A DNA stretch of 64,000 nucleotides from Polytrichum commune (lineage: Eukaryota; Streptophyta; Polytrichopsida; Polytrichales; Polytrichaceae), in contig OX485806.1 in NCBI GenBank assembly GCA_950295325.1, positions 44,263,169-44,327,168 on the forward strand. Reading direction: 5' to 3'. The notes below the pieces were generated by a model. That model searched no databases, was not told where the DNA came from, and was given only the letters and a program-made list of their open reading frames with translations. Positions within the stretch are counted from its first letter, which is position 1. Each line of letters starts with the position of its first letter. Shown piece by piece: positions 7,835 to 64,000 of this stretch. The position numbers were made by a program, and so were the translations under genes.

Positions 7835-9443
7835 TGTTGCAATCCTTGCTAATTTTTCTTAACCATCTTAACCATTTTCATTTCTAGCAAGAATCACGAG
7901 CGCTAACCCTTTGCATTCCACCATGCTAATGGTTAGCTCCTCCTACCTGGGACCTTATAGTTCATAAGAGGGGAACTAACCTTTCTACTTTGCTTTCGGG
8001 ACTCATCCCTTAATTGATAACCAATTCTTAGATGTTGATCATCGCATTGCCGGAGCAACACTACAACAACCTAAACCATATTAAGCAACTATGCCCTCAC
8101 ATTGGGCCAAAACCCATGGAGGTTGTCGCGCACCTCTCCATGAGGAGTGCCCAAAACACCATGGGCACAAGGGGGACCCCAGAGTGACACCCGGGACTTG
8201 TGGCGCCGTAGGTGAAGGCCCAAGTGATCCTAGTGTGGGTGAGGGGCCCGGGCGTTGGGAACGCCTCCCACCCACGGAGACTAGGAGGCATGAGGGTAAG
8301 GCCATGAGCTATGCGTAGCTCATGGCGGGATGATTCTAGAATGCTCAAGATCACCTCAATCGGAGGTGTGAGCTAGGAGTTATGGCAATTTGAGTGGGGC
8401 GCTGTCCCAGGACAGCGCCCTGGTACAGCAGTGCCTGGGAGTGATTCCCGGGACTGCCAAGGTTTAAACAAGCATTACTTCCTCAATACCTGGCCGAATG
8501 AGGCAAGTGAGGAGTCCATCGGCATTTACGTGAAGCGTAGATGAAGATGGAGTGGTTGGTTGTTGGCTCCAGACATCATACAAGGAAGTTACGATGGTCT
8601 GAAGCTGCTGGGGGCTTCTAGGCCCAGCAGCTAAGGGAAAGTGTCTACTTGGCCCCAACTCTTGGTAGAGAGACAAGAGGTTTCTTGACGGTGGGGTAGG
8701 GGCCCTGCGTAGAGTCCTAGAGGATTATATGGGTGGGGTAGAGGCCCTATATGGTGTGGCCTCACCCACCCGAGGCCGAACGGCACAACCTCCATGGGCT
8801 TTGGCCCAATGTGAGGCCATAGTTGCCTAGTATGGTTCGGGTTGTTGTAGTGTTGCTCCGGCAATGCGATGATCAACATAAGATTGGACTTCCATGGATG
8901 AAAGTCCACATCCAAGGATTGGTTACTGATTAAGGGGTGAGTCCCGAAAGCAAAGTAGGAGGGTTGGTTCCCCTCCTATGAACTATAAGGTCCAGGGTAG
9001 GAGGAGCTAACCATTAGCATGGCGGTATGCGAAGGTTTAGCACTCGTAACCTTTGTTAGAAATGGAAATTGGCAAGATAGTTAAGGGGACTAACAAGGGT
9101 TGCGACAGAGGCCGTGCCGTCGGCCTCGGGTGGGTGAGGCCACACCACCCCACCCATATAAGCCTCTAGGTTCATATTGCCATATCTCGTAGTTCACACC
9201 TCCGATGAAGGTATTCTTGAGCATTCTAGTATCTACACGCCATAAGCTACGCATAGCTTATGGCCTTACCCTTGTGCCTCCTAGTCTCCATGGGTGAGAG
9301 GCGTTCTCAACGCTCGGGGCCCTTACCCACACTAGGATCACTTGGGCCCTCTCATCAACAATGCCACAAGTCCCGGGTGTCACTCCGGGGTCCCCTTTGT
9401 GCCCATGGTGTTTCGGGCACTCCTCATGGAGAGGTGCATGACA
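7835..9443 (-). mobile_element. family A solo LTR (outer, minus), split by another family A LTR
   Basis: The left end TGTTGCAATCCTTGCTA is the reverse complement of the usual 3' end (AGCAAGGGTTGCGACA) with changes. The right end GGAGAGGTGCATGACA mirrors the usual TGTCGCGCACCTCTCC start. Removing the inner copy (8124-9107) leaves about 625 bp of recognisable LTR, less than the 970 bp of full copies, so internal sequence is also lost. No target duplication is found (GGCAC against AATGC). It looks old and partly decayed. Confidence 0.75.
8124..9107 (+). mobile_element. family A solo LTR (inner, plus)
   Basis: This copy starts TGTCGCGCACCTCTCC and ends AGGGTTGCGACA, with canonical TG/CA ends and a 6-bp terminal inverted repeat TGTCGC/GCGACA. 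It is 984 bp. The flanks are GAGGT and GAGGC, a 5-bp target duplication with one C-to-T difference; the uninterrupted minus copy near 45.26 kb reads GAGGC at this place. The target is therefore the outer antiparallel LTR of the same family. Confidence 0.85.
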
Positions 9444-15162: not shown

Positions 15163-18100
15163 CTAGGAAGTAGATTGTATCAAGAGGCCCCCTTCTAGGA
15201 TGAGTTTGACCTCATTGAAGCTAAATTTCGGGGCGTGAATGAACAAGTCAACTTCGGGGTCTGCATTAGAGACCTTAACAAAGATGAAGTAGAGGTGCTT
15301 GCAATGCATGAACGAATTTCGTTTGCGGCCAAACTTTGATATCATATCCTTGAAGGCCAGGCAATTACATTCGGGCAGGGAACTCATTGTGAGTTGGTAA
15401 ATAGATTGTGTAGGTGCAGGTTTGGACTGCAATATGATCACGCAACCAAATTCAGGGCGTGGAATCATGATGACCTTCAATATGGTCCCGTCCATAGCTC
15501 GTGCAGATGCGACCATTTGCAGTTGTTTTGTTGATGGTGCAGTGGCAGACCGTCTCGTAGTTATGGATTTCTTGGAAGAAAGATAAGAGTCTGGGTTGGC
15601 AGGAACGTCCATTCCGGAGAGGTCGAGGGGAGGAGCCGATGTATTGAAGAGGCGAGTGGGTATGATGCGCTCTTTCTGCGGGAGCTGAAAGCCGACATTT
15701 TCAAGCTTGAGGATCTCCGGACGAGTAAGGTTGGTACCAAGTTTGACAGGCCACATAGGAGGGATCGGAGGTCGTTCTTGGTCAGTAGAGAATTTGTCGA
15801 CCCACTTGCGTTGTGAACCTTTGACACAACGCTCAATGTCGTTAGGGAAAAAAAAAAACTTCTCGATTTTAGGTGTTGTGAATTTGTAATAGTTCCAAAC
15901 TCCAAGATATGTTGGTGCAGGGGTGCTCTTGGAGTTGGAGACGATTTTGGCAATGCATTTCTTCTTGGTGACAGCATGCATGGCCCAACACGCCTTGGAG
16001 GAATTGTAAGGAACGCGAGAAATATGTTAGAGGTTCTCGTCCACTTTGGATTCTTGTACAGCAGTGACACGGCCAAAATCCAAACCAGTAGGAAGGGGTG
16101 GTGGAACCTCGATCACGGTCGTGGAGAACTCCTCGACGATGGTAGGCAAAGGTGAAGCATGAGATCTTGTGGGTCTCTGAGCAACACGAGGGCGAGAGAA
16201 GTTGACGGTGTCGGGGTGGTGGGTTTCATTGTCAACTCCAATGGGGGTGTCGGACTTGCGTTTCTGTGAGCCGAATACCTCGGCACCCTCGAGGTTGGGA
16301 CTACAAATACAGAATTCGTCCCCGCCTTCGAAGTCCATGAGAACCTTTTGCAGAACAGTGGGGTCACCAGTACGTTGAGCGCATCGAAGCTTGAGTTCTT
16401 CTTTGCTAGGGCCATTGCCCCCAACGCCACCCTTTAGAAATTGATGGTACGCCACGACTTGGAGGAAGGCTCGAATGTAGTCATCCACAGTGGCCACGTA
16501 TAGATCGCCACCCTTGTTGCCGGACGCTTGAAGCCATTTGTTGTGAATGGATTCGGCAAGGTTGCAATTGGGCATTTGTGCGAATTCCTCGGCGGTTATG
16601 ATTTTTTCCTGCAAAATGGAATGACACTGTAAGGAATAAGCAAAGCTTGGAAAAAAAAGATAAAACAAAAAAGATAAAACAAAACAAATGCACCAATTCC
16701 ATGAAGCCACCCCATTGTCGATATCGAAAGTGCCTAAAGGCCAGCCAAAGTTGAAGGTGTTTCAGCCCCTCCTCGGATGTGCAGTCAGACGAAGCCCACC
16801 AGGCCTTGATGGCGAGGTACCTCATCCATGCCTCAAGCATAGAGGATGCATCGCGATATTGGAGGCAGAGACGCTTGTGTTGGTCTTGCAAGTCGTGCTT
16901 GATATAGAGTTTGGTGTGTTTATCCAAAGACTGGGTCCAATGGAAGTAGCAGGTTCTCTCGCGCCCATCGATGGGAACCTTTGGATCTCTAGACCTGTAG
17001 ACAATCCTGACATCATTCCAATTGGCTTGCGCACTATCTGCCATGAATCCTTTGAAGTGAGACTTGGGAATTCCATGCCTAGCCATGACGTGGTTGAGGT
17101 TGTGCCAGAAAAACACTTGAGCATCCATGTCCTCGGATTGAAAGTCGCAGCAAACGATGGTCATGATGCGTTGGTAGGTTCCGTCGTATACGTGGCAGGC
17201 CATGGTGGTCCACTTGGCGACGCGTTTGACATGGTCGGATATGATCCAAGCATGCTCGAGATCCCCGCCAAGTTGCATGCGCCTAACCAAGTCGACCCCA
17301 CTACTAGGGCCGATTTCGGACATCTTGAAAACAAAAACTTTGTCTGTCTCGTCACCTTGGCCCGAGAATTGATTCCGCTGGACATAGGTCCAAGTGCTAA
17401 CACCTCTAAGCTTGGCGATGCCATCCATAACTCCTAACCTATGTAAGTATTTGAAGGTGGTAACATTGTTTTGGAGGTGGGGGGAATTCAACTCTTTGCA
17501 ACGATAAAAAATGGGCTCAAGTTCTTCCAAAGAAAGAAGTTGATGAGGATCACTATCATTGCGGAGGAGGAACTCACCTACATGTCCTTGCTGGCTTCAA
17601 AGATGATTTTGCTATGAGTGGTTTGGGGCGTTCGCTCGACGTGCTCCTCGATGAGGGCGTCGATGGGTTTGCGGCTATCTCTGCAATTGCCAACCTTGAC
17701 GGGGTGACGATGGTTGCCCAAATGAATGAAGGCACGATGAGTGATGTCATTGTCGTGGACGTAGAGGATTTTGGCGTGACATGGTGCAATGCATTTGGGA
17801 GGCTCCTTACAGATACGGCACATTAGAGTGGATCCCAAAGGCAAGGGTCCACCAACGGGGAAGGGCTCCTTGGTGAATCCGTCGAAATCAATATCATTGA
17901 CCGGGGAGGTCTGATGAGCACATTGTAGGTAATCGCACTAAGGATTTTGGCACTGGAGGTGGCCAACGCAAGTGGAGGAGCGAAAAACAAGGCCCATGTC
18001 ATTGGTGATATTGGTGGTCTTGGTCCAAACATGGTCGTCATAGCGTTTGTCCATGCCGTCCATGGATTGGGCCTTCGTATAAGAGGAAGAGACACCAAGT

Positions 18101-20260: not shown

Positions 20261-20574
20261 TCAAACTACATGGAATGTCCACTTGAGTTGCTCTCGGCCT
20301 TGTCTTGATTTGGGTTTAGTGAGTATGTGAGAGGTAGGGTTTCGAGTTGAAGAGAGGATTTTTGAGTTCTCAAACTACATGGAATGTTCACTTGGGTTGC
20401 TCTCGGCCTTGTCTTGCTTTGGGTTAAATGAGCATGTAAGAGGTAGGGTTTACGGTTGAAGCGAGGGCTGTTGAGTTCTCAAACTACATGGACTATTCAC
20501 TTGGGTTGCTCAGGGCCTTGTTTTGATATCTCAAGTCACTATGTGAGAGGAAGGGTTTTAAGTTCACGAGAGGC
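20261..20574 (+). repeat. 109-bp tandem repeat, about 3 copies
   Basis: Units begin CTCAAACTACATGGAATG at about 20261, 20370 and 20479, so the period is 109 bp. Each unit includes TTGCTCTCGGCC, also found in the neighbouring 128-bp satellite, but the third alone ends in the GAGGCCTC palindrome half. This looks like a sister subfamily or the source of the main satellite. Confidence 0.8.
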
Positions 20575-22541
20575 CTCTTTTGTTTGTAAGTTTGTGCTTG
20601 AAAATTCAAAATGTTCTGTGCACATTTGTTTGCTCTCGGCCATTTCTGGATTTCCTAAGGGCACATGTACGAGCTAGGGGAAGAGGCCTTGGATCCAAGG
20701 CCACTTTTGTTTGTAAGTTTGTGCTTGAAATTTCAGAATGTTATGTGCACATTTGTTTGCTCTCGGCCATTTCAGGATTTCCTAAGCGCACATGCAGGAG
20801 ATAGGGGAAGAGGCCTCGGATCCGAGGCCTCTTTTGTTTGTAAGTTTGTGCTTGAAATTTGAGAATGTTATGTGCACATTTGTTTGCTCTCGGCCATTTC
20901 TGGATTTCCTAAGGGCACATGTACGATATAGGAGAAGAAGCTCGGATCCAAGGCCTCTTTTGTTTCTTGATTTGGGATTGAAAATTTCAGAATGTTATGT
21001 GCACATTTGTTTGCTCTCGGCCATTTTTGGATTTCCTAAGGGCACATGTACGAGCTAGGGGAACAAACCTCGGATTTGAGGCCTCTTTTGTTTGTTGATT
21101 TGAGTTTGAGAATTTCAGAATGTTATTTGTACATTTCTTTGCTCTCGGCCATTTCGGGATTTCCTAAGGGCACATGTACAAACTAGGGGAAGAGGCCTCA
21201 GATCCGATGCCTCTTTTGTTTGTAAGTTTCTGCTTTAAGTTTTAGAATGTTATGTGCACATTTGTTTGCTCTCGGCCATTTCAGGATTTCCTAAGGGCAC
21301 ATGCAGGAGATAGGGGAAGAGGCCTCGGATCCGAGGCCTCTTTTGTTTGTTGGTATGAGTTTGAAAATTTTGGAATGTTATTTGTACATTTGTTTGCTCT
21401 CGGCCATTTCAGGATTTCCTAAGGGCACATGTATGAGCTACGGGAAGAGGCCTCGGATCCGAGGCCTCTTTTGTTTGTTAATTTGGGATTGAAAATTTCA
21501 GAATGTTATGTGCACATTTGTTTGCTCTCGGCCATTTCAAGATTTCCTAAGGGCACATGTACGAGCTAGGGGAAGATGCCTTGGATCCGAGGCCTCTTTT
21601 ATTTGTTGATTTGGGATTGAAAATTTCAGAATGTTATGTGCACATTTGTTTGCTCTCGGCCATTTCAAGATTTCCTAAGGGCACATGTACGAGCTAGGGG
21701 AAGATGCCTTGGATCCGAGGCCTCTTTTATTTGTTGATTTGGGATTGAAAATTTCAGAATGTTATGTGCACATTTGTTTGCTCTCGGCCATTTTTGGATT
21801 TCCTAAGGGCACATGTACGAGCTAGGGGAAGAGGCCTCGGATCCAAGGCCTCTTTTGTTTGTAAGTTTGTGCTTGAAATTTGAGAATGTTATGTGCACAC
21901 TTGTTTGCTCTCGGCCATTTTCGGATTTCCTAAGGGCACATGTACGAGCTAGGGGAAGAGGCCTCGGATCCGAGGCCTCTTTTGTTTGTAAGTTTGTGCT
22001 TGAAATTTGAGAATGTTATGTGCACATTTGTTTGCTCTCGGCCATTTTTGGATTTCCTTATGGCACATGTACGAGCTAGGGGAAGAGGCCTCGGATCCGC
22101 GGCCTGATTTGTTTATTGATTTGGGATTGAAAATTTCAGAATGTTATGTGCGCATGTGTTTGCTCTCGGCCATTTTTGAATTTCCTAAGGGCACATGTAC
22201 GAGCTAGGGGAAGAGGCCTCGGATCCGAGGCCTCTTTTGTTTGTTGATTTGCGATTCAAAATTTCAGAATGTTATGTGCACATTTGTTTGCTCTCGGCCA
22301 TTTTTGGATTTCCTAAGGGCACATGTACGAGCTAGGGGAAGAGGCCTCGGATCCGAGGCCTCTTTTGTTTGTAAGTTTGTGCTTGAAATTTGAGAATGTT
22401 ATGTGCACATTTTTTTGGTCTCGGCCATTTTTGGATATCCTAAGGGCACGTGTACGAGCTAGGGGAAGAGGCCTCGGATCTGCGGCCTCTTTCGTTTGTT
22501 GATTTGGGATTGAAAATTTTAGAATGTTATGTGCACATTTG
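20575..22541 (+). repeat. 128-bp palindrome-bearing satellite, block 1 (about 15 units)
   Basis: Unit starts measured at the palindrome (21321, 21449, 21577, 21705, 21833) give a 128-bp period. Each unit has CTCGGCCATTT, GGATTTCCTAAGGGCACATG, a perfect 26-bp inverted repeat in the best copies (AAGAGGCCTCGGA followed at once by its reverse complement, with GGATCC at the centre), and AATGTTATGTGCACATTTG. Differences between units are mostly transitions. It lies in what may be a gene intron. Confidence 0.95.
22420..22541 (+). repeat. 122-bp unit duplicated on both sides of the 2.2-kb insertion (left copy)
   Basis: This block, from CTCGGCC to CACATTTG, is matched by 24772-24893 with a single mismatch (22481 T against 24833 C). 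Both share variants rare elsewhere in the array: GGATATCC, CACGTGTACG, TTTCGTTTG and AATTTTAG. They flank the inserted block as exact direct repeats. Confidence 0.9.
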
Positions 22542-24771: not shown

Positions 24772-25842
24772 CTCGGCCATTTTTGGATATCCTAAGGGCA
24801 CGTGTACGAGCTAGGGGAAGAGGCCTCGGATCCGCGGCCTCTTTCGTTTGTTGATTTGGGATTGAAAATTTTAGAATGTTATGTGCACATTTGTTTGCTC
24901 TCGGCCATTTTTGGATTTCATAAGGGCACATGTACGAGGTAGGGGAAGAGGCCTCGGATCCGCGGCGTCTTTTGTTTGTTGATTTGGGCTTCAAAATTTC
25001 AGAATGTTATGTGTAGATTTGTTTGCTCTCGGCCATTTCTGGATTTCCTAAAGGCACATGTACGAGCTAGGAGAAGAGGCCTCGGATCCGAGGCCTCTTT
25101 TGTTTGTAAGTTTGTGCTTGAAATTTGAGAATGTTATGTGCACATTTGTTTGCTCTTGGCCATTTTTGGATTTCCTAAGGGCACATGCACAAGCTAGGGG
25201 AGGAGGCCTCGGATCCGAGGCCTCTTTTGTTTGTATGTTTGTGTTTGAAATTTGAGAATGTTATGTGCACATTTGTTTGCTTTCGGCCATTTTTGGATTT
25301 CCTAAGGGCACATGTACGAGCTACGGGGAAAGGCCTCGGAAACGCGGCCTCTTTTCTTTGTTGATTTGGGATTCAAAATTTCAGAATGTTATGTGCACAT
25401 TTGTTTGCTCTCGGCCATTTTTGGATTTCCTAAGAGCACATGTACGAGCTAGGGGAAGAGGCCTCGGAACCGCGGCTTGTTTTGTTTGTTGATTTGGGAT
25501 TGAAAATTTCAGAATGTTATTTGCACATTTGTTTGTTCCTCGGCCATTTTTGGAATTCATAAGGGCACATGTACGAGCTAGGGGAGAAGGCCTCGGATCT
25601 GAGGCCTCTTTTGTTTGTTGATTTGTGATTCAAAATTTCATAATGTTATGTGCACATTTGTTTGCTCTCGGCTATTTTTGGATTTCTTAAGGGCACATGT
25701 ACGAGCTAGGGGAAGAGGCCTCGGATCCGAGGCCTTTTTTGTTTGTAAGTTTGTGCTTGAAATTTGAGAATGTTATGTGCACATTTGTTTGCTCTCGGCC
25801 ATTTCTCAATTTCCTAAGGGCACATGTACGACCTAGGGGAAG
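24772..25842 (+). repeat. 128-bp palindrome-bearing satellite, block 2 (about 8 units)
   Basis: Same monomer and orientation as block 1, with palindromes near 24820, 24948, 25077, 25205, 25333, 25461, 25588 and 25717. Several copies have the variant GGATCCGCGGCC, which breaks the palindrome by one base. The block ends where a MITE entered the AGGGGAAG part of a unit. Its first 122 bp duplicate the end of block 1. Confidence 0.95.
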
Positions 25843-26472: not shown

Positions 26473-26777
26473 AGGGGAAGAGGGCTCGAATCGGAGGCCT
26501 TTTTTGTTTGTATGTTTATGCTTGAAATTTGAGAATGTTATGTGCACATTTGTTTGCTCTCGGCCATTTTTGGATTTCCTAAGGGCACATGTAGGAGCTA
26601 GGGGAAGATACCTCGGATCCGAGGCCTTTTTTGTTTGTAAGTTTGTGCTTTAAATTTGAGAATGTTATGTGCACATTTGTTTGCTCTCGACCATTTCTGG
26701 ATTTCCTAAGGGCATATGTATGAGATAGGGGAAGAGGCTCGGATCCAAGGCCTCTTTTGTTTGTTGATTTGGGATTG
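26473..26777 (+). repeat. 128-bp satellite, block 3 (about 3 units)
   Basis: The array continues after the MITE, with units near 26480, 26608 and 26734 and the same monomer and orientation. It stops at TTGGGATTGAAG, where the reading frame of the methyltransferase-like gene resumes. This join looks like a possible AG splice acceptor. Confidence 0.9.
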
Positions 26778-51619: not shown

Positions 51620-52440
51620 CAATTTCCTTCTTAGGGTTTGTGGACACAATGTTTGGTACGAAAGGTAGAGTGAGAGCTTAAGAAGTTCAAGGGCATAACA
51701 TTGCTTAGTTGATGAATTGTGTTCAAGGCCCCAAAGTAGATTCAAGAATAAAGCCTCCGGATGCTAGAATTCTAATGCTTCAAACTGAATATGAAGTCAG
51801 GGTAGATAAACACAACTCATCAGCTGACTCATGTTATGGGATGACAATTAACTCAATTACTTCATAAAACAACTCAAATTTCAAATCTATTATGGACGCC
51901 AGTCATTTTAGGACCTTCAGTAAGAGGTCTCACTAGAACAATAATTAACTTAATGGTGCAAACAATTCCCATTACATCCAAACTAATTACAAATTATAAT
52001 CATTGCATTGCATTTCAGTTATAACTAAACATGTTTATTTTAAATTTACTCGAGCAAGATACATCAATCAATCTATAACACACAATAAATATCCAAAATT
52101 ACATATCATTATACATTCCACTGCTATCCCACACGGACCTTGAATCTGTGCCCATTATCAAAAAGCCATGTTGGCTATCAAAAACCCTAAACATTTGGCA
52201 CTACCCTCTCCGCAACAATATGAAAATGCTACCATGAGATGTCTGATATTACACTGAGAGTAGATATAAGATACCTATATAAGAATCTCAGATTTACAAC
52301 TTTGAAAAAATGATAATGACACCAATTTACAAAGTAGAGGAAGTGGTAGTGTGAACCAAAATAACTGCATGGTACCAAGGCAATGAAGATAATCATAATT
52401 TAACATTGCAAGCCACCTGAAAATAGTGATGACCTTATGA
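51620..52440 (-). repeat. inverted partial copy of the PDAP1-gene 3' flank
   Basis: Homologue of 4463-5310 read on the minus strand (see that entry). The left limit is near GGATTCTCCACCCGG and the right limit near TAGTGATGACCTTATGAG. None of the PDAP1 coding exons are included, so it is not a gene copy. Confidence 0.8.
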
Positions 52441-53435
52441 GAAATTAAGGTATTTGGATTTCGGAAGAGGCAAGTATCGCAAGGAAAGTTTGCAGGAGTA
52501 TCCGAGAACACGCGGAGGGCGTGGGATTGCGGTAAATTTGAGGTCGGTTTATTCTTCCACCACATTGGATTAGGGAGAGGTGCTTGGCATAAGAGGTTGA
52601 TTTGATTTTCTTTTGGTTAAAAAGAAAAGAAATTTAGGCGATGAAATTTAAGCCATCACACACTTAAATTTTTTAGGTACAAGTTGTGGGTGTCATGATT
52701 CATTTAGGAAAATTTAAATGGGATTGCCGAGGGATTGCCACTAAAAATTACTTGGCACATAGAATCACCATGTAATTGTTAAGGTCGAATTGTGTTTAGC
52801 AACACAGACTCCGGAGATTGTTGTGAGAACGAGTTTTTATGTTATTAAGGGAAGATGAAGAATGTGCTTATGTGCCAATTTTTTCATGGCAACAAGGATA
52901 TCTTACGCTTGACCACCAACCACAACCAAGTGCCCGTTATACGCGGTCCATTTGATTTGGTGGTGGTTGTAGGTGCAGGTTGTCTTTCACATTTTGACAT
53001 TTTATTTTGATTCCGTATTAGTATAGGTTTTTGGCTCTAGTAACCAAACCCATTGTGGGTCTATTGTAACAACTCGGAGCCAATATTATTGTTCTCCATC
53101 TCCAAGGGCATTGGAAGATTGATCTTCTTCCCTCTCGGATGTTGAACCAGTCGTAAGACCCGACAAGGCTTTTCAGCCTACTTCGGCATGGGGAATTGCA
53201 TTCGGTCTCATGTTCTTCAAGTGGGGACCTTTGACGATATGAAGGAGGAGACGCAACGACGAATCCAAGACTGATTTTACAGTCGAGCTGGGATCATTTC
53301 CCTACAATATTGGAAAATTTGGTTTAGGACGTGAATGCAGGAGAAACATCAACGTAATACTAATTTTAATGATTGGTATGCGTTTAAGCTTTTGCCCTAG
53401 AATTTTGAGCATGAGACATTCCAAATTTATGAACA
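52441..53435. other. no gene recognised; possible 5' end of the DNMT-bearing element
   Basis: Non-coding, upstream of the gag-like region of the next element. It could contain its LTR or leader, but I could not identify matching LTR ends or a primer site. Confidence 0.35.
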
Positions 53436-54950
53436 ATGGACAAATGCTCATTGGATGAAGTTTGCCAGGTGGAGCAGTATTGGGAGATGCTGATAGAATT
53501 GTTTTCTGCATTAAAAAAGGGCATAACTATCAGTTCATTGGTCGCTCCTGTGGTGAAGACAGAGCAAACAAAGGGTGTCTTTGTAGTAGATGTGGATAGG
53601 TGTTACCTAGGTGGCATAGCTTCTGTAGGAAATCCGCCAGATTTTGATCTTCTACATGAATATAACTTCATTTGCAAGAGGAATATGGAGGTTTCCGTCG
53701 GGATCAAATGCAACGGATCCAAGATTTTAGGCGGCAGAATGACGACATGTCTCGTATCATATACACAAGATTGGAGAGATTTGCCAAGGAATCTAGAGGT
53801 GTTTTTGCAGAGAGCCAATTAATGAAGGTTTTTTTTTGTCAAAAATTGAGAAACGCCTCATTGACTTAGTGTTGCCCATGATCATCATGGATTATGATGG
53901 GTGGACGACACTTGTAGAGGCATTCGCCATTGTGAAACAGTGTGATTGTGCCTTGTGTCAATTCAATGCCATTGATTTGTTGTCCTTGCTAGTGGATTCT
54001 TGCAAATTTTGAAAGACTTCGGTTGTGACTACAAGATTGGTAAAGGCAGAAGACAAGACTTTGTATTATTGGGCTTGTGGACAGTGGAACCATCCTAAGA
54101 ATAATTTTCTTTCAAAGCAAAAGCAGGTTGACACCGCGAATCATCCAAAGCGGAAGCTAGTTGTTTCCGCTAACAATTCAATGAAGAAGGCCGATAAACA
54201 TTTACCAAAGCAGTTGAAGTGTTCATTGTGGGCAGAACAATCACGCGGTGAAAACTTGCTTCGTTCTCCATTAAAAAAATGCATTTTTTTGAGTGGGAAA
54301 AGACGTTGGAGGCAAAGCTTGGCACCTTGGAGGTGAGGTTCAAGAATTTGGTGTCAATTGGCCAAATATTGGAATCACCAGCTCCACCCGGAGCTAAGGC
54401 TAGGTCGTCGACTCTCGATAACTATATATTTGAGGCTTCGGGGGAGGTGATGAGTTGGTAGTTGTAACACGTGTTTTTATATTCAATCTTAAGATATCTT
54501 TGACCACAAAGGAGGCTGTTGAGACCATTTGGGCTCGTGACAATGGTCCCGTGGATCAAATTGGTTAGGCGCATCTGCCATTGCCTTTTGGAATGGTAGA
54601 TGTTGTCCAATATATCAATGGCCAAAATTCGAGCATGGAAGATTCAAATCCGTCGATTGACATGGTGCACACACCTTTGTTTACAATATTGGAGTGGTCG
54701 TCACCCGGCATCCAAATGGTTAAATTGTTCTACTTAGTAGGTAGGATTTTGGAAGGCAAGGCATCCTTGTCTTCATTCATTGTGGCTTAAGCCACTGCAA
54801 ACCTCCCTGCCATTGAGGATCTTGAAGAAACAACCAAACAACGAGTGAGGCTTGTGGCGGAGGCCATTGCATCTTTTGATGCACACACTTTAGACGACAA
54901 AGGGCCGACCACATCTAACAACTCATCCAAATCCGCGGGGGTAGCTTATT
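53436..54950 (+). pseudogene. gag region of the DNMT-bearing gypsy-type element
   Basis: Plus-strand readings begin MDKCSLDEVCQVEQYWEMLI (53436). After several shifts, a zinc-knuckle remnant LYYWACGQWNHPKNNF (about 54060-54107) keeps one Cys and the His of a CCHC motif but has lost the first and last Cys. A further coiled, charged segment follows (FFEWEKTLEAKLGTLEVRFK, about 54280). Then come ETIWARDNGP and a stretch reaching SAGVAYL at 54950, where LTR A2 entered. Stops and frameshifts are frequent. The gag call rests on the zinc knuckle and on position upstream of the RT. Confidence 0.65.
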
Positions 54951-55923
54951 TGTCGCGCACCTCTCCATGAGGAGTGCCCGAAAGACCATGGGCACAAAGG
55001 GGACCCCGGAGTGACACCCGAGACTTGTGGCGCCGTTGGTGAGAGGGTCCAAGTGATCCTAGTGTGGGTGAGGGCCCCGGGCGTTGGGAACGCCTCCCAC
55101 CCACCAAGACTAGGAGGCACGAGGCTAAGGCCATAAGCTATGCGTAGCTTATGGTGTGGTGATTTTATAAAGCTCAACAACACCTCAATCGGAGGCGTGA
55201 GCTAGGAGTTATGGAAATTTGAGTGGGGCGTTGTCCTGGGACAGCGCCCTGGTACAGCAGTGCCTGGGAGTGATTCCCAGCACTTCCAAGGTTTAAACAG
55301 GCATAACTTCATCAATAATTGCTTGAATGGAGCAAGTGAGGAGTCCATCAGCATCTACGTGAAGCGTAGATGAAGATGAAGTGGTTGGTTGTTAGCATCC
55401 AACATCATACAAGGAAGTTATGATGGTCTGAAGCTTTTGGGAGCTTCTAGGCTCAGCGGCTAAGGGAAAATGTCTACTTGGCCCAACTCTTGGCAGAGAG
55501 ACAAAAGGTTTCTTCACGGTGGGGTAGGGGCCCCGCGTAAAGTCGTAGAGGCTTATATGGGCGAGGTGGTGTGGCCTCACCCACCCGAGGCCGAACGGCA
55601 CGGCCTCTATGGGCATTGGCCCAATGTGAGGCCATAGTTGCCTAGTACGCTTCGGGTTGTTGTAGTGTTGCTCCGGCAACGCGATGATCAACATAGGATT
55701 GGACTTCCATGGATGAAAGTCCACATGGAAGAAATGGGTTACTGATTAAGGGGTGAGTCCCGAAAGCAAAGTAGGAGGTTTGGTTCCCCTCGTATGAACT
55801 ATAAGGTCCGGGGTAGGAGGAGCTAACCATTAGCATGGCGGAATGTGAAGGGTTACCACTCGTAACCTTTGCTAGAAATGAAAATTGGCAAGATTGTCAA
55901 GGGAGTTAGCAAGGGTTGTGACA
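54951..55923 (+). mobile_element. family A solo LTR (copy A2)
   Basis: TGTCGCGCACCTCTCC to AAGGGTTGTGACA, 973 bp, flanked by TTATT on both sides. Without it, the host frame reads GVAYL|SNITARDICE without loss, confirming a clean insertion. Confidence 0.95.
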
Positions 55924-56744
55924 TTATTTGTCGAATATAACTGCTAGAGATATTTGTGAGTGCTGCGACATTCGACTCGGCATCATGTGTATGGTGAATG
56001 ATACGGACATTTTGGTGGTCAGTCATGCTGGGGGCAATGCTATTTGGGTTGCACCCCAATGTATGATGATGAACTCGGGTTTGCAACCAGTTATGATCGG
56101 CAAAAAACTTGCCCAGGAATTACGGTTGATGGCCAATGAGTTGGTTTTTTGCCCCTTTATCATCGTCATCTCTATTGGCCAAGTGGAGCGGACCACTGGT
56201 TACATTCGGTAGCCACTACAGTTATGCTACCGCGTGAAGCCTGAAGATCCACCCACATCTTTTTTCTTAGGTGTGCGGTGACAAATATGACCAATTATGA
56301 TATTTAAGTTGGTCAGTAAGCACTCTATCCCTTGGGTTTTGGTTTGGACAACTGGACTGAAGAAACTTATATCCGACCTGGTTGGTCGGCTGGAGACGAC
56401 CATAAAGAATTTACTCTTGTGGCATTTGTGGCGACTGTGACCATAGCACCTTTATCCATGGTTTTTGGATGTGGTGTTATTGTGGATATATTGTCATATG
56501 TTTTCGTATTATTGGAGGAGTCATTGGCATTCATGAGAAATGTTGAGGATCAACGGGAGATGTCACCTCAAGGTGCATTGGTGCATTATTCCAAAGATCA
56601 TCTTCTTCCATGGCGCAATTTTGCCGACCTATTCCAAAGGTGTAAGGACATTGTCTTCTCTCTCGGTTCTATAACACCAGTGATCTGTGGTACCTCATCG
56701 GCGTTGGCACGTACTATCTCATGGCGTCCGCCAGACAAGGGATT
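55924..56744 (+). pseudogene. protease-like/linker region of the DNMT-bearing element
   Basis: Continues the frame after LTR A2: SNITARDICECCDIRLGIM, ILVVSHAGGNAIWVAPQ, LQPVMIGKKLAQELRLM, then after a shift MGFGLDNWTEETYIRPGWSA. The order (short beta-strand-like segments, SHAG where a retropepsin has its D-T/S-G turn, then a VMIGKK-type strand) could be a decayed aspartic protease, but the catalytic Asp is not visible. This remains a weak assignment. At least two frameshifts occur. Confidence 0.45.
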
Positions 56745-57710
56745 CCTTTGGTGGAACTGTTTGGAGGCATCGAAACAAGATTGGCAGCCGCGTTGGAGGC
56801 TGGCCTCAGGGTTTGCAAATATGTATGTGTGGATGACAGTCAGGTGTCCACCTGTGTGGCTCGTCACCATATCCATTAGTTGATGGTATTGCACCCATAG
56901 CTACTACATCCAACTGCCATTTGTGAGTCTTTTGCAAGCCTCCCTCGTGATGATACACTTATCAGCGAGGCATGCTTACAAAAATTGGGTCCCGTGGATT
57001 TGGAGATAGCGGAATGGCCCTGCTAGGGCCACTCACGTGCTAGAGCGGGCCGAGGGTTAGGGGATCCCAGATCTAGTTTTTTTGGGGACCTCATCCGACC
57101 TATGTAATGGTGGTATGCCTACCAACCTTCCACTGCAAGGTACATATTCGAGAATGTACCTCTGCTGGGAGATTCTTGAGACAAGGTGTTGAAAGGCAAA
57201 CATTATATCTGTCAACACCTTGGTGATCCCATTTTTGTGGATGCTACGAGCTTTGGTTCTTATTCCCACCAACCTCGGTGGCTTTGGACCAACCTCGCAG
57301 CGCTATCCATTTTAACTGCAACATTTTCTGCAGTGTCTCCACCTTTTAATCAAGAGGTGGATGCCATTTTGGATCCACACTAGACCCCTTTGTTGGTTGT
57401 CAAGATTATTTACCCTTGTTGGCAATGGTCAACAAAGTGAGGGCACCACGGAGGGTCTTTTCCACCTTTATGACTTTCCCACAGTCATTTGCATTTTGTG
57501 ATCACGGGTCTGGCATGGTGTGGGATGATCACACCAATAGCCATACCGAACCATTGGTTGATGAACAGGAACGTGCCATGGGATTCCGCACGGGCACCAT
57601 AGCAGCTCCTGGCATGTCTGAGAGCCAACGACGCTTTATGTTGGACCAAGCCATGGATCTTAATATCATGGTGTGGAATCTTGGTTTATGCCTTGCATTG
57701 CAACAACATC
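56745..57710 (+). pseudogene. C5-cytosine DNA methyltransferase-like domain inside a gypsy-type element
   Basis: In one frame from 56745: PLVELFGGIETRLAAALEAG (motif I, SAM loop DLFxGxGG), then VCVDDS (motif II), GPVDLEIAEWPC (57018-57023, motif IV Pro-Cys catalytic pair) followed by a TAG where Gln is typical, GHSRARAGRG, IFENVPLLGD (57147-57176, motif VI ENV), and SYSHQPRWLW (motif VIII). After a frameshift: ERAMGFRTG (57575) and QAMDLNIMVW, resembling motifs IX-X. The order and spacing fit a small C5 MTase of DNMT3-like size. At least five in-frame stops, many explainable by CAG-to-TAG or CGA-to-TGA, make it dead. Gag-like sequence lies upstream and RT downstream on the same strand. Confidence 0.78.
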
Positions 57711-57844
57711 ATGGTGACCAATTGTTGTCTCAAGGGACAGAGGATTCTGGTCAGGGAGCACATCAATCCACATTCATGAAGGAGGAAATTAACGCCATGG
57801 TTGGAGAGACCAAACGAATCTCTCAATTCGAGCAACAAGTAATG
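57711..57844 (+). pseudogene. linker after the DNMT-like domain
   Basis: Open continuation of the preceding frame with GDQLLSQGTEDSGQGAH and FMKEEINAMVGETKR, a polar, probably helical linker. It is interrupted by LTR A3 after QQV. Confidence 0.5.
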
Positions 57845-58816
57845 TGTCGCGCACCTCTCCATGAGGAGTGCCCAAAACATCATGGGCACAAGAAGGACCC
57901 CGGAGTGACACCCGGGACTTGTGGCGCCGTTGGTGAGAGGGCCCAAATGATCCTAGTGTGGGTGAGGGCCCCGGGCGTTGGGAACGCCTCCCACCCAAAA
58001 CGACTAGGAGGCACGAAGGTTAGGCCATTAGCTATGCGTAGCTTATGGCGCATACATTTCATAATGCTCAAGAACACCTCAATCCGAGGTGTGAGCTAGG
58101 AGTTATGGCAATTTGAGTGGGGCGCTGTCCCAGGACAACGCCCTGGTACAACAGTGCCTGGGAGTGATTCCCAGGACTGCCAAGGTTCGAACAGGCATAA
58201 CTTCCTCAATACTTTCTAGAATGAGGTAAGTTAGGAGTCCATCGGCATCTACGTGAAGCGTAAATGAAGATGGAGTGGTTGTTTGTTGCATCAGACATCA
58301 TACAAGGAAGTTATGATGGTCTGAAGCTTTTGGGAGCTTCTAGGCTCAGCGGCTAAGGGAAAATGTCTACTTGGCCCCAACTCTTGGTAGAAAGACAAGA
58401 GTTTTCTTCACGGTGGGGTAGGGGCCCGGCGTAGAGTCCTAGAGGTTTATATGGGTGAGGTGGTGTGGCCTCACCCACCCGAGGCCGAACGGCACGGCTT
58501 CCATGGGCATTGGCCCAATGTGAGGCCATAGTTGCCTAGTACGCTTCGGGTTGTTGTAATGTTGCTCCGGCAACGCGATGATCAACATAGGATTGGACTT
58601 CCATGAATGGAAGTCCACATCTAAGGATTGGTTACTAATTAAGGGGTGAGTCCCAAAAGCAAAGTAGGAGGGTTGGTTCCCCTCGTATGAACTTAAAGGT
58701 CTGGGGTAGGAGGAGCTAACCATTAGCATGGCGGAATGTGAAGGGTTAGCGCTCGTAACCTTTGCTAGAAATGAAAATCGGCTAGATTGTTAAGGGGGCT
58801 AGCAAGGGTTGCGACA
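57845..58816 (+). mobile_element. family A solo LTR (copy A3)
   Basis: TGTCGCGCACCTCTCC to AGGGTTGCGACA, 972 bp, flanked by perfect TAATG duplications (57840-57844 and 58817-58821). Removal joins QFEQQV to MKEL in frame. Confidence 0.95.
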
Positions 58817-59174
58817 TAATGAAGGAGCTTTGAGCTGAACGGGTTTATACTGCTTTGGCTTGTTCGCCTCCGGTGGTGGCTTCATCATCACATATTGGTG
58901 GCAATGAAGGAAAACCAGATTCTATTGGTGGCAATGAGGTTGGGGACATGGTTAATGTCCCTTCCTCTTAGTAGTGGTTAGAGTTTGTACCAGCATTAGG
59001 TGTCTGCATTAGAAAGGGAGACCATAGAGTTTGATGATTTGCCATTGGAATTTGGCCCTCATCTCACTTGTGCTGAGGCAGGAAAGGTATGAGTGTTCAT
59101 TTGCTTGTACTATAGGTGTTCTATTTTTAACCTTCAAGATCTTGAAGGCTGTAAGGAAAACTCATCTACATTCA
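58817..59174 (+). pseudogene. linker between DNMT-like domain and RT
   Basis: Reads MKEL, stop, AERVYTALACSPPVVASSSH and a short GGNE repeat, then after stops a segment ending in KTHLHS. No domain is recognised. Its place between the methyltransferase-like domain and RT suggests a protease or spacer, but no catalytic motif is visible. Confidence 0.4.
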
Positions 59175-60148
59175 TGTCGTGCACCTCTCCATGAGGAGTG
59201 CCCGAAACACCATGGGCACAAGGGGGACCCCGGAGTGACACCCGGGACTTGTGGCGCCGTCGGTGAGAGGGCCCAAGTGATCCTAGTGTGGGTGAGGGCC
59301 CCGGGCGTTGGGAACGCCTCCCACCCACGAAGACTAGGAGGCGCAAGGGTAAGGCCATGAGTTATGCGTAGCTCATGGCGTGGTGATTCTAGAAAGCTCA
59401 AGAACACCTCAATCGGAGGTGTGAGCTAGGAGTTATGGCCATTTGAGTGGGGCGCTGTCCCGGGACAGCGCCCTGGTACAGCAATGCCTGGGAGTGATTC
59501 CCGGGACTGCCAAGGTTCAAACAGGCATAACTTGCTCAAGACTTGCTCAAATGGGGCAAGTGAGGGGTCCATCGGCATCTACGTGAAGCGTAGATGAGGA
59601 TGGAGTGGTTGTTTGTTATGATCAGACATCATACAAGGAAGTTATGATGGTCTGAAGCTGCTGAGGGGTTCTAGGCCCAGCAGCTAAAGGAAAATGTCCA
59701 CTTGGCCCCAACTCTTGGTAGAGAGACAAGAGGTTGGTTGACGGTGGGGTAGGGGCCCCGCGTGAAGTCCTAGAGGCTTATATGGGTGAGGTGGTGTGGC
59801 CTCACCCACCCGAGGCCGAACGGCAAGGCCTCGATGGGCTTTGGCCCATTGTGAGGCCATAGTTGCCTAGTATGGTTCGGGTTGTTGTAGTGTTGCTCCG
59901 GCAACGCGATGATCAACATAGGATTGGACTTCCATGGATGGAAGTCCACATTGGGGAAATGGGTTACCGATTAAGGGATGAGTCCCGAAAGCAAAGTAAG
60001 AGGGTTGGTTCCCTCCTATGAGCTATATGGTCCGGGGTAGGAGGAGCTAACCATTAGCATGGCGGAATGCGAAGGGTTAGCGCTCGTAACCTTTGCTAGA
60101 ATTGAAAATTGGCAAGATTGTCAAGGGGGGCTAGCAAGGGTTGCGACA
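59175..60148 (+). mobile_element. family A solo LTR (copy A4)
   Basis: TGTCGTGCACCTCTCC to AGGGTTGCGACA, 974 bp, flanked by perfect ATTCA duplications (59170-59174 and 60149-60153). Confidence 0.95.
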
Positions 60149-60422
60149 ATTCAGCTGAAGGACGACCATCCTATTTTTGGTAGACCTTACATGCTTAGTG
60201 TTTTCGAAAGGATTGGTGTCTAAGTTTGTTGCCAAGAGTTCTTGGCAGCAAGGCTTATTGAACTCTCCAACGGGAATATGCTTGTGCTATGGTTATGCCA
60301 TCGAAGGAGGATATCTTTGGCAATTGGACGGAAAACGGATGTGCGAGGATTATCATCCAGTTAACTACAAGACCAAATCATATTGATATCCCATGCCAAT
60401 CTTGGAGGAGTTGTTTGATGCC
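60149..60422 (+). pseudogene. reverse transcriptase N-terminus of the DNMT-bearing element
   Basis: IQLKDDHPIFGRPYMLSVFE, then after a stop and a shift LARLIELSNG-like and GKRMCEDYHPVNYKTKSY (60327-60383), stop, YPMPILEELFDA. This is the start of a Ty3/gypsy-type RT: a C-x-DYxxVNxxT motif followed by YPMPxxEELFDxL. The catalytic YxDD part would follow, but the frame is cut at 60422 by a family B LTR. This fragment is what shows the methyltransferase-like domain to lie in a retroelement. Confidence 0.75.
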
Positions 60423-60680
60423 TGTGAGCCAAAAATGGTGCCCCACATGTGTTCATAACCCTTTGAAACTATTAAAAGTTATGTTTTGATGTTTTATGAT
60501 TATTCACAAAAATATAAAAAGAGTGAGGCTTGAGTGAAGTTATGTTTAGACCTTAGGTTGATTAGAAGTTTAGCGGTGTGAAGAAAATTCCTTAGTTAGG
60601 TGAGCATAGTGTGTGGTGAACCAAGGATGGCTCCTTGAGTTAAATGTTTGAATTAGGATCTATGTTGTTGGTTTAAGAGT

Positions 60681-60860
60681 TGAAGGCTTAAATGATAGGA
60701 TGAGAGCCTACAAAGTAGGAAAAAAATCAAAAGGTTTATCTTGAGCCTTGGGGGTGCTTACCTACTCCCTTGAAGGCTTAAAGGATAGGATGAGAGCCTA
60801 CAAAGTAGGAAATGATCAAAAGGTTTATCTTGAGCCTTGGGAGTGCTCACCTACTCCCTT
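60681..60860 (+). repeat. 90-bp tandem duplication in LTR B3
   Basis: TGAAGGCTTAAATGATAGGA at 60681 recurs 90 bp later at 60771 (TGAAGGCTTAAAGGATAGGA), both followed by GCCTACAAAGTAGG and TTGAGCCTTGGG. There are few differences. Confidence 0.9.
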
Positions 60861-61095
60861 TCACCTCACTATATAATCCTCACTCTCCCCTCTCCCTCTT
60901 CCTCTTTCTTTTGTGCTCCTTGGCACCCCACGTGTTATGAATGTGGGTGTGTGGGAAGCAAGAAAGGAGCACGTGTGTGTGCAAGGTCTCAAGGTGAAGA
61001 ACCAAGACTAATTAGCCTTGAAGTTAGTTAACACTTGTTAGGAATAGTCTTTGGTTTCAGGCATTTAGAGTTTAGCTCGTTGTGTTATAATAGAG

Positions 61096-61527
61096 AGTAG
61101 AGAGCTGTGATAGTAGAGAGCTGGGTGTATCCACAGCTGTGATATTAGGAAGCTGCGTATATCCAAAACTTTGATATTAGGGAGTTGTGTGTACCCGCAG
61201 CAGCTGGGTGTATCCACAGCTGTGATAGTAGAGAGTTGGGTGTATTCACAGCTGTGATATTAGGGAGCTGGGTGTATCCATAGCTGTGATAGTAGAGAGG
61301 TGGGTGTATCCACAACTGTGATATTAAGGAGGTGGGTGTATCCACAGCTGTGATAGTAGAGAGTTGGGTGTATCCACAACTGTGATATTAGGGAGCTGGG
61401 TGTATCCACAACTGTGATAGTAAAGAGTTGGGTGTATCCACAGCTGTGATATTAGGGAGCTGGGTGTATCCACAGCTGTGATAGTAGAGAGTTGGGTGTA
61501 TCCACAGCTGTGACATTAGGGGGGTTG
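61096..61527 (+). repeat. 32-bp minisatellite with 64-bp dimer order, in LTR B3
   Basis: Units of 32 bp contain TGGGTGTATCCACAGCTGTG. They alternate between a GATAGTAGAGAG form and a GATATTAGGGAG form, giving a 64-bp higher-order period for about 13 units. The left edge is more irregular, with one unit disrupted near 61197. The minus-strand peptide with repeated LWIHP/YGYTQ-like words is just this repeat translated. Confidence 0.9.
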
Positions 61528-62125
61528 GGTTAAACTAGCGTAGGGGTTTAGTTGATAGCTGGGATTAGTGCAGTGGCTTTGAGGTTGTCACCAAGGTGGC
61601 GTTAAGCGTGGAGTCGATATTAACGGTGAAGTTGACGTCAAGCGGGGAGTCGACATCGACTTGGAGTTGGCACCAAGTTGCTAGGTTGGTCATCACCTCA
61701 TGGATTCTACAAGGCCAAGTTCTTCCACAGTTAGAATCTTAAGAGGAATGTTGGCAATGGTAGGCATGGCTAAACCATGACGTTGAGACTTGATTTGGCT
61801 AAAGGTGTGCTCGCACATGATTGCTAACATTAGCGAGGTGTTGTTGCCTCAAGTGATGTGGGAAACTGAAGAGAATCACCAAGTGAATGAAAACCATAAA
61901 AAGAGGTTGGAGTAAGGGTAGTGAGATAGTCACTTTCACTTGCACTCACAAGAATGAGTAAGAAGAAGTACACATGTGACTAGTAAAGGGGAATTAATAA
62001 ATTACTTGGGCGGAAGATCCAAGTTGGATTTTGTGTTTCTTTAATTGTCATTACAAGAGATGTGATTTTCAAAAACATCACCTGGACTAGGACGCTTAAG
62101 GGTGGCGGGTTTGGCCTCACATAAA

Positions 62126-62143
62126 TGGTGCGTCCGCCGGGAG
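62126..62143 (+). promoter_or_regulatory. family B primer-binding site (tRNA-Gly type)
   Basis: TGGTGCGTCCGCCGGGAG, four bases after the LTR terminus, the same as in the two minus-strand copies. Confidence 0.78.
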
Positions 62144-62988
62144 CAAAGCGGAAACTAGAAGCAAGACTTGGAGGCAACTAGAAGATTTGGAAGGCGATTA
62201 GGAGGACTTGGAGTTGGACACGAGTATGGAAGGTGCGCTCGAGGGAGGTAAGTATTTCGTGTTTAAATTTTGATTGGATAGTATAGTTGTTTTGGAATGA
62301 ATTGCATTTGATTCATGCAAATTCATTTATGGATGGAATGCGGCTAAGGTATATGTTAAACTCTCTTGGGATGGCATAACAAGATCACAATAATAGGATT
62401 CGAATTAGTTTACTAAGAGTTAGAGGGATAATCAAATTTTAGGAAATCCAACTTTGACATTCACCTCGGGGTGAGTGTCTAAGTTCTTGAACTAGGGATT
62501 GTTACTTTTGAATTACAATTGCTAGGGTGGTTATTGTGTTGTATCAATCACAGTCGAGTGCAAGTGCTAACTTACAAGAGGAATCGAATTGCTTGAGGTA
62601 AGCATATTCTTCAAAGTGAGAAGACTAATTAATTAAGGAAAGATTTTCGTACTCGTGTTTGTCGTTATCCGTTGTAGAGGGTAATTCCTGAATCATAGCA
62701 TCATGTTGAGGACAAGAGGGTGATGCCTCGGTCCTTAATGTGGTGCATGACAAAGGTCAGCCCCTCACTCTCGGTATCGTGGTTAGTGTCAATTCAAGGA
62801 GTGGCACGGAGGTGATTCTCCGGCTTGACTAAGAATTGACACGAACATGCCTATCCCTTGTTTGGGATTTTTCACTTCAGTGGGCTTGCAGGATCTCTTT
62901 CCTCACCTCCATAATTTATAAGTCAAACCAAGGGAAGTCGGTGAGGAGTGTGTTTGGTCAAGTAAGGGTTGATCGATTCTTTATGGAA
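62144..62988 (+). mobile_element. family B leader (copy B3)
   Basis: Untranslated leader homologous, in inverted orientation, to 33956-34840. Includes GAGGGTGATGCCTCGGTC and the GTGGTGCATGAC string. No gene. Confidence 0.75.
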
Positions 62989-64000
62989 TGCAAGGTAAAC
63001 TCGATCCCAAAAACCAAGTTTGACATTAGGATTAGAAAGACCTAGACGTAGGAGGACATCATCTGGAATAAGCGAAGGATTAGAAGAAGTGGATGGTAGA
63101 ATATAAAGTTATTTGAACGTTGAGCCTAAATCATTGTTAGATACATTAGAATCGGAGGTTTAACTTGAGGAACATGTTATCCCTTCCAAGTTGAGTGGTG
63201 AAACTTCATAAAAAAATAACGTGCTTGGGGAAGAAATTCCAATAAACGTTGATAGGGGGTTACAGGGGAGCGCACCGGCCACCATGGATCATGATCGAGG
63301 GACGGATCCACCACCCATACCTCCTATGCCACCCATTGATCCATTGGTTAGGCCGAGAGGCTTACCAATCGTGGTTCCACAAAACTTACAAGCGGTGGAC
63401 ATGCCTTCCCACCTCCCTAAGTTTTATGGAACTAAGGATGAGGATCCTTCTAGGCATATGGAGAGGTACATGGAAAGGTTAGCTAGCTCATTCGTGACTA
63501 ATCCGGGGTATTGGCTAGTATGGTTCCCCACCACTTTAGAGGGGGAGGCTTATGAGTGGTATAGGGATCATGCCGAGGGACATTTTAGAGGATGAGACCA
63601 ATTACAAAGGGAATTCTTGAATGAGTTCCGTCCAGAGGTTGGTCAAAGCACGGCGTTGAGGGCATTGGCTTCGATCAAGCAAGGTCGGGAAGAGGAAATT
63701 TTGGCCTACATTAGGAGGTTTGATTTAGTGTGTACACGATTTGTGGGAACCATGCTAAGTGATGACACACTAAGGCAATTCTTTCTTCAAGGATTCTTTA
63801 AGTCGGAACAATTAGGGGAGTTCTTGAGAGAAATCCTCACACATTGGCAGATGCCAAGCGGGCGGCTAGACAAATAGAGAGTTTGGATAAAGATCACGAG
63901 AGATTGTGGAGAAGGGAAGATGAATTGATACCTCAATTCATTCCCATTCGACCTAGGGTGGTCACGGGAGAACCGGTCAAGTATGAGAGCCAAGTTCCTT
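62989..64000 (+). pseudogene. family B gag (copy B3), runs off the window
   Basis: Begins ATGCAAGGTAAAC (MQGK, as in the minus-strand copy) but soon shifts frame. From 63221 it is open: GLPIVVPQNLQAVDMPSHLP, KFYGTKDEDPSRHMERYMER, LEGEAYEWYRDHAEG. A TGA at about 63594 replaces a Trp codon of the sister copy (KWEQ), then LQREFLNEFRPEV, ALRALASIKQGREEEILAYI and FLQGFFKSEQLGEFLREIL. After a one-base shift near 63842 the frame continues as DAKRAARQIESLDKDHERL to the edge. It encodes more of the capsid domain than the copy at 33.2-33.9 kb. Inactive. Confidence 0.88.

Follow-up and report, generated by a model that had tools for sequence, protein, structure and literature searches.

The DNA analysed here (the window) is a stretch of 64,000 nucleotides from Polytrichum commune (contig OX485806.1, positions 44,263,169 to 44,327,168, forward strand). 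At window positions 53063-60422 on the plus strand, it contains a decayed Ty3/gypsy retroelement comprising gag, a protease, a C5-cytosine methyltransferase (MTase) resembling DNMT3 and the start of a reverse transcriptase (RT), and its identity as a Ty3/gypsy element carrying a DNMT3-like MTase is almost certain. The segments between the nested insertions were translated in the three plus-strand frames, and a relative with open reading frames (ORFs), L001, was compared with the whole window by tblastn, which gave colinear plus-strand matches running from gag (53063) through protease and MTase to RT (group E 8e-119 for protease-MTase and 5e-28 for RT). An earlier reading of the DNA by eye and ORF list (the sequence-only reading) had placed the start at 53436, which these matches move to about 53063; its order of gag, MTase and RT is correct, while the protease between gag and MTase had been missed. 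The features, including the nested long terminal repeats (LTRs), are as follows.

53063-53519 (+): N-terminal part of gag, decayed, in three frames (tblastn, residues 10-160 of the L001 N-terminal ORF, 46-50% identity, group E 1e-25)
53669-54945 (+): gag core, two zinc-knuckle remnants and linker, decayed (tblastn, L001 ORF1 residues 37-486, group E 4e-50)
54951-55923 (+): nested solo LTR 1 (duplication TTATT at 54946-54950 and 55924-55928; 91% identical to LTR copy 3)
55925-56742 (+): aspartic-protease region and protease-MTase linker, decayed (tblastn, L001 ORF1 residues 474-746, 45-47% identity)
56736-57760 (+): DNMT3-like C5-cytosine MTase, motifs I-X (tblastn, L001 ORF1 residues 745-1086, 51% identity)
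57845-58816 (+): nested solo LTR 2 (duplication TAATG at 57840-57844 and 58817-58821)
58822-58974 (+): post-MTase tail, ending TAG TAG (58969-58974), matching the C-terminus of the relative P0014
59003-59149 (+): start of the RT-containing pol part (tblastn, L001 ORF2 residues 12-60, 57% identity, E 8e-11)
59175-60148 (+): nested solo LTR 3 (duplication ATTCA at 59170-59174 and 60149-60153)
60154-60422 (+): N-terminal part of RT up to YPMPILEELFDA, in three frames (tblastn, L001 ORF2 residues 57-159, 58-90% identity, group E 5e-28)
60424-64000 (+): another gypsy-like sequence, which cuts RT short and continues past the window end (62078-63716 shares 74% identity with minus-strand gypsy sequence at 34884-33228)

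The zinc-knuckle remnants of gag were recognised by eye. As each of the three nested LTR copies (972-974 bp) is bordered by a perfect 5-bp duplication, they are solo LTRs of another element inserted here, which bears out the three LTR insertions of the sequence-only reading. Solo LTR 2 is 90% identical to copy 3, P0014 continues across its insertion point without a break, and further copies of the LTR are located at 8124-9107 (+) and 45927-44960 (-). The first listed RT match to L001 ORF2 starts at 60116, within the end of LTR 3, and the RT stops at 60422 because another gypsy-like sequence begins at about 60424 (TGTGAG...), a start placed where the RT match ends. By tblastn of L001 the window copy reaches only the RT start; no integrase of this copy lies within the window, and the remaining pol may lie beyond the window edge. 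The sole additional matches of L001 in the window at E<=0.01, two weaker ones to pol (49299-49135 and 48092-47484, minus strand), are part of another element, and the reversed-window control gave no match at this threshold. Within the window, the LTRs of the element itself were not located, a repeat at 51623-52433 (87% like 5306-4470) considered as candidate 5' LTR has by eye no clear TG...CA ends or duplications, no primer-binding site was found in the leader, and an Rfam scan gave no match at the gathering score.

The MTase of the window copy contains, on the plus strand and in linear order (I-IV-VI-VIII-X), ELFGGI (motif I, 56754), WPC (motif IV, 57015), ENV (motif VI, 57150), HQPRWLW (motif VIII, 57267), FPQSFAF (IX-like, 57476) and LDQAMDL (motif X, 57641). 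The C5-MTase motifs named in the sequence-only reading are thus found in order on one strand, with gag and RT pieces around them, and a rearrangement of the DRM type is not seen. The domain is decayed: five stops fall within the 234 codons of P0001 (the window MTase piece, stops read as X), the frame changes around 57350-57470, and WPC of motif IV is followed by TAG where relatives carry Q. For this decayed copy the refuting condition of the sequence-only reading, the lack of a significant DNA_methylase match, literally holds, as PF00145 scores below threshold against P0001 (E 0.17; 11.7 bits against a cut-off of 22) and NCBIfam dcm gives E 0.058. Stronger evidence overturns it: phmmer against PDB finds DNMT3A (E 3.2e-6), 14 relatives in the protein database share 60-72% identity (PF00145 being precomputed in 9 of them), and a profile of 22 relatives, with the window copy left out, matches P0001 with an E of 1.3e-92 when 62 sequences are searched. 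In the 22 aligned relatives, Cys-Gln of motif IV and Glu of motif VI are invariant and Asn-Val of motif VI nearly so. DNMT3, the de novo type of DNA methyltransferase, is the nearest of the solved MTases by sequence and by predicted fold (the model is poorly defined at residues 203-254), and the MTase profile ranks it far above bacterial enzymes.

L001 (contig CADCWO010000201.1, 9285 bp) is filed under a cyanobacterial metagenome-assembled genome in GTDB (Synechococcales). As it encodes a gypsy polyprotein and a PHD finger, it probably represents eukaryotic DNA that was binned with bacteria. The 127 bp at its two ends are the same, as would result from the assembly of a repeated element as a circle with its LTRs collapsed. 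P0018, labelled as a DNA cytosine methyltransferase of Candidatus Obscuribacterales, also looks like mis-binned eukaryotic DNA. The order in L001 is gag-protease-MTase (ORF1), a stop, and RT-RNase H-integrase-PHD (ORF2). ORF1 contains two zinc knuckles by pattern (none listed by Pfam), a protease matching Asp_protease_2 (E 7.8e-4, under the curated cut-off) and the MTase (PF00145, E 6.8e-12), while ORF2 contains RVT_1 (E 4e-31), RNase H (E 2e-38), Integrase_H2C2 (E 1e-17), rve (E 1e-13) and a C-terminal PHD finger (E 4e-10). The best PDB match of its RT-RNase H is Ty3 (E 2e-77), followed by 8r0s 'Enzymatic polyprotein' (E 4e-50), and the Ty3/gypsy order protease-RT-RNase H-integrase with a DDE integrase is present. 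Pfam lists no tyrosine recombinase for L001, DUF3444 is absent among the Pfam matches of its ORFs at E<=0.1, and no primer-binding site was found with 7 patterns. The window copy follows L001 piece by piece, and its order is therefore not an artefact of nesting.

Relatives of the element occur in liverworts and charophyte algae. A search with a long query gave 29 proteins, in which motif IV was found by pattern in 27, ENV in 24 and motif VIII in 26. MTase and RT are joined in one ORF in P0144, P0148, P0151, P0152 and P0153, of which P0144 is a partial gene model of Marchantia polymorpha (MTase-RT-RNase H) and P0148 a single ORF with zinc knuckle-protease-MTase-RT-RNase H, and P0150 from Closterium has two zinc knuckles, DTGA at 419, the MTase at 555-971 and the start of RT at 1069-1183. 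Two layouts are distinguished: layout A, protease-MTase-RT, is shown by Pfam for P0148 and applies to P0144 and P0150 when their DSGA/DTGA stretch is taken as protease, and layout B, RT-RNase H-MTase-integrase, in P0151-P0153. The shared layout of L001, P0148, P0144 and P0150, together with the predicted fold of DNMT3 type, supports the earlier proposal of a gypsy element carrying a C5-MTase; the gag-DNMT-RT order, which the sequence-only reading proposed to compare among copies, is not shared by all relatives, the MTase of P0151-P0153 being placed between RNase H and integrase. A PHD finger is located at the C-terminus of three elements (L001, P0152 and P0153), with Cph2, CHD4, PHF12 and UHRF1 as best PDB matches, and P0153 continues past it in a long extension (about 1590-1922) with no Pfam match at E<=0.01. 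The same MTase without a listed RT is found in P0122, P0145 and P0146 from Marchantia (P0122 has a zinc knuckle plus MTase) and in P0044 from Calypogeia (MTase alone), while P0054, in which MTase is joined to integrase in 281 aa, is taken as a deletion or chimera.

In a quick maximum-likelihood tree of 53 rows (P0003, P0006, P0041, P0045, P0047, P0146 and four bacterial rows omitted), the window copy groups with P0004 and P0017 (SH-aLRT 100) inside a 26-row clade with L001 (SH-aLRT 100), and layout B forms one clade (SH-aLRT 97), which is united at 86 with P0148 and with two rows from Closterium. The RT sequences split along the same line, as L001 shares 55-68% with P0148/P0144 and 38-45% with layout B. 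A bacterial or phage origin of the MTase was rejected, as the 11 bacterial/phage rows stand apart at SH-aLRT 99 (long branches being flagged by the program) and the profile favours DNMT3. In viral contigs, query A2 gave 30 loci at 28-46% identity, which are taken as phage or bacterial MTases from the nature of the collection (14 of the 30, plus L002, were extracted), and nothing was found there for P0004 or the L001 pol; the genome-contig search gave two loci, L001 and one from Streptomyces at 34%. No Klebsormidium nitens sequence is among the named relatives in the matches listed, one list giving the best 120 of 199.

The end of the gag-protease-MTase ORF is conserved. Related post-MTase tails (GGMNALSATK, GGMDVAPSTD, GNGASSSN, GGMVNAPSSQ and the like) end 22 of the 35 rows compared, namely L001, P0125-P0130, P0132, P0133, P0135-P0141, P0018-P0022 and P0014, near-copies included. 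The distance from motif X to the end is exactly 109 residues in 8 and 111-157 in the other 13 measured, motif X of P0130 being unmatched. The shared tail is missing in 13 rows, of which P0144, P0148 and P0150 continue into RT and the others may be cut by contig ends. The stop region was read as DNA for L001 and the window, the other ORFs being compared by their protein ends. In the window, TAG TAG lies at the place matching the ORF ends of the relatives, and L001 has a TAG stop with CAATCA next, ORF2 being in the same frame. UAG-CARYYA is known from tobamoviruses and others as a readthrough context of type I (PMC5382211), and L001 resembles these viruses in having UAG and CAAUCA between Gag-protease-MTase and RT; it differs in being a retrotransposon represented by one copy only, for which readthrough is predicted from sequence. 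The first methionine of L001 ORF2 is residue 117, inside the part aligned to Ty3 RT (from residue 79), and therefore speaks against re-initiation at ORF2. The RNA following the L001 stop is predicted to fold strongly (z -3.9, 0 of 200 shuffles as strong), which is only suggestive of a role. P0144, P0148 and P0151-P0153 have no stop at the matching place, so a leaky-stop device would be a trait of the subfamily.

The MTase is conserved between subfamilies as strongly as the protease: counted over four of the five pairings of the first row of alignment A4 (six rows) with the others, identities are 57-73% for the MTase, 56-69% for the protease, 53-68% for the gag core and 24-40% for the linkers. 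Over 365 MTase codons, the window copy and L001 differ at 38%, 29% and 61% of first, second and third positions, respectively, a pattern which, as far as codon positions can tell, appears to be the trace of past selection at the protein level. For the window copy, with its stops and frameshifts, selection is not shown by these figures.

A DNMT3 within a gypsy element is of a known kind, as KnitGypsy-Dnmt3 has been described from K. nitens (de Mendoza et al. 2018, PMC5890265), and the statement of the sequence-only reading that retrotransposons of algal and dinoflagellate lineages acquired DNMTs agrees with the account of K. nitens and dinoflagellates given there. Both are LTR gypsy elements of streptophytes with a DNMT3-type C5-MTase whose key residues are conserved, and the purifying selection reported for KnitGypsy-Dnmt3 is paralleled here by protein-level constraint. 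Compared by description only, KnitGypsy-Dnmt3 differs in that its DNMT is said to lie in the Pol ORF and its repeats to be DIRS-like, whereas in L001 and the 21 other ORFs with the shared tail the MTase ends the Gag-protease ORF before the stop; P0144, P0148 and P0151-P0153 hold MTase and RT in one ORF. Split repeats were not seen in L001, whose assembly as a circle may mask them. SymbioDIRS-Dnmt3 and SymbioLINE-Dnmt of dinoflagellates are likewise retroelements with cytosine DNMTs, and two domain orders coexist in SymbioDIRS too (PMC5890265), but they have a tyrosine recombinase and a LINE endonuclease, respectively, in place of the DDE integrase of L001. The DNMT3 genes of land-plant hosts (Yaari et al. 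2019, PMC6453930) share the DNMT3-type catalytic domain and a linear motif order, unlike DRM; they contain DUF3444, whereas protease and RT adjoin the MTase of the retroelements.

Transposon-encoded DNA methylases have been said, in a 2019 paper, to be absent from land plants, and PMC12344493 (2025) mentions reports of such DNMT3s in streptophytes and dinoflagellates, land plants not being named in the passages on them. No report of DNMT3-carrying retroelements in land plants was found in the open-access literature searched (supplements excluded). The absence is contradicted by the Marchantia model P0144 with MTase and RT, and P0122 and P0044 point the same way. What is added here comprises this land-plant gene model, the Gag-side MTase at a conserved ORF end, the C-terminal PHD finger and the second layout.

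The window element is likely an old, multiply broken Ty3/gypsy copy from a streptophyte family in which the MTase, located between protease and RT and made on the Gag side, would methylate the element's own complementary DNA (cDNA). With UAG-CAAUCA as in L001, most translation would end after Gag-protease-MTase, which would thus be abundant, and RT-RNase H-integrase-PHD would arise only when ribosomes now and then read through the stop; packaged together with Gag, the MTase would be present in the particle where cDNA forms, methylation of the new cDNA being its simplest use, and the PHD finger would probably tether the integrase to histone H3 or marked chromatin. Self-methylation of cDNA was proposed by de Mendoza and colleagues for SymbioDIRS, whose DNMTs gave CG methylation in yeast, and the gain was suggested to be a signal against recognition as foreign or protection from deamination (PMC5890265). 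As a mechanism, methylation of the cDNA is put forward tentatively, leaning slightly to the doubtful side. More doubtful is the widest version, namely a streptophyte-wide gypsy lineage that predates and persists in land plants, with a selected DNMT3-like enzyme made at Gag dose through a leaky UAG and cDNA methylated before its placement by the PHD-integrase.

Several observations weigh against methylation of the cDNA by a Gag-dosed enzyme. Elements without an MTase retrotranspose too, and the layout-B relatives carry the MTase with pol, so that a Gag-level dose is not clearly essential. Only a single copy shows the leaky-stop motif at the DNA level, the window having TAG TAG TGG at this place, and 3 of 145 sliding windows of the L001 coding sequence fold as strongly as the region after its stop. 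The ENV pattern is missing in 5 of the 29 long relatives (P0142, P0143, P0147, P0149 and P0150): P0142 stops soon after motif IV, P0143 and P0147 show none of the motifs searched for, and P0149 and P0150 cover the ENV region. In yeast, no methylation was obtained with the K. nitens domain, a result its authors call inconclusive (PMC5890265). This result, and the poorly defined stretch of the model, would suit a domain that no longer methylates DNA and is retained for RNA binding, RNA methylation or a structural role, which is nevertheless unlikely in view of the invariant Cys-Gln and Glu and of a conservation equal to that of the protease. It is similarly unlikely that the MTase acts on the host, by methylating chromatin at the insertion site or silencing rival elements; an enzyme of de novo type and the PHD finger in L001, P0152 and P0153, suggestive of chromatin targeting, are in its favour, but the Gag-side layout puts MTase and integrase-PHD on different primary products. 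An antiviral function for the host, a published speculation of Morozov and colleagues (PMC6338049), is very improbable, as it leans on the absence from land plants that P0144 contradicts.

The origin of the arrangement can be questioned in two ways. That a piece of a host DNMT3 gene and a gypsy element unrelated to it merely abut by nesting, as the heavily nested region and the LTR insertions between the MTase and RT pieces might suggest, has next to no probability and was rejected, because the layout recurs in L001 and in several single ORFs including P0148, and P0014 bridges one insertion point; the sequence-only reading had itself named such an abutment as a finding that would refute its proposal. 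The position of the MTase at two different places in pol may suggest two independent captures of DNMT3 in place of one capture followed by relocation. This is the less probable history, as the layout-B MTases form a single clade that joins P0148 and the Closterium rows and the RT identities divide in the same way, although the tree that argues against it is without host plant DNMT3 genes and its DNMT3A row is a 178-residue piece on a flagged long branch.

Elsewhere in the window, satellite-like arrays of a 127-128-bp tandem unit are located at 20570-22541 (15.5 copies), 24772-25842 (8.4) and 26473-26764 (2.3), and the gypsy-like sequence starting near 60424 contains, at 61103-61521, a 32-bp minisatellite (about 10 copies in 61205-61513). 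The LTR-family copy at 8124-9107 is flanked on both sides by its own inverted pieces, forming a palindromic structure (7835-9443). Two overlapping minus-strand ORFs of 371 and 244 aa (16027-17596) are transposase-like by eye and have no Pfam match at E<=0.01.

Plants mark their transposons for silencing mainly by cytosine methylation, and an element with its own methyltransferase is thus a testable paradox. Since Marchantia is a tractable laboratory plant, the role of the retroelement MTase can be tested in vivo, and the Gag-side MTase with a leaky stop gives a specific prediction on dose and packaging. If the proposed mechanism is true, the element would turn the silencing mark of its host to its own ends.

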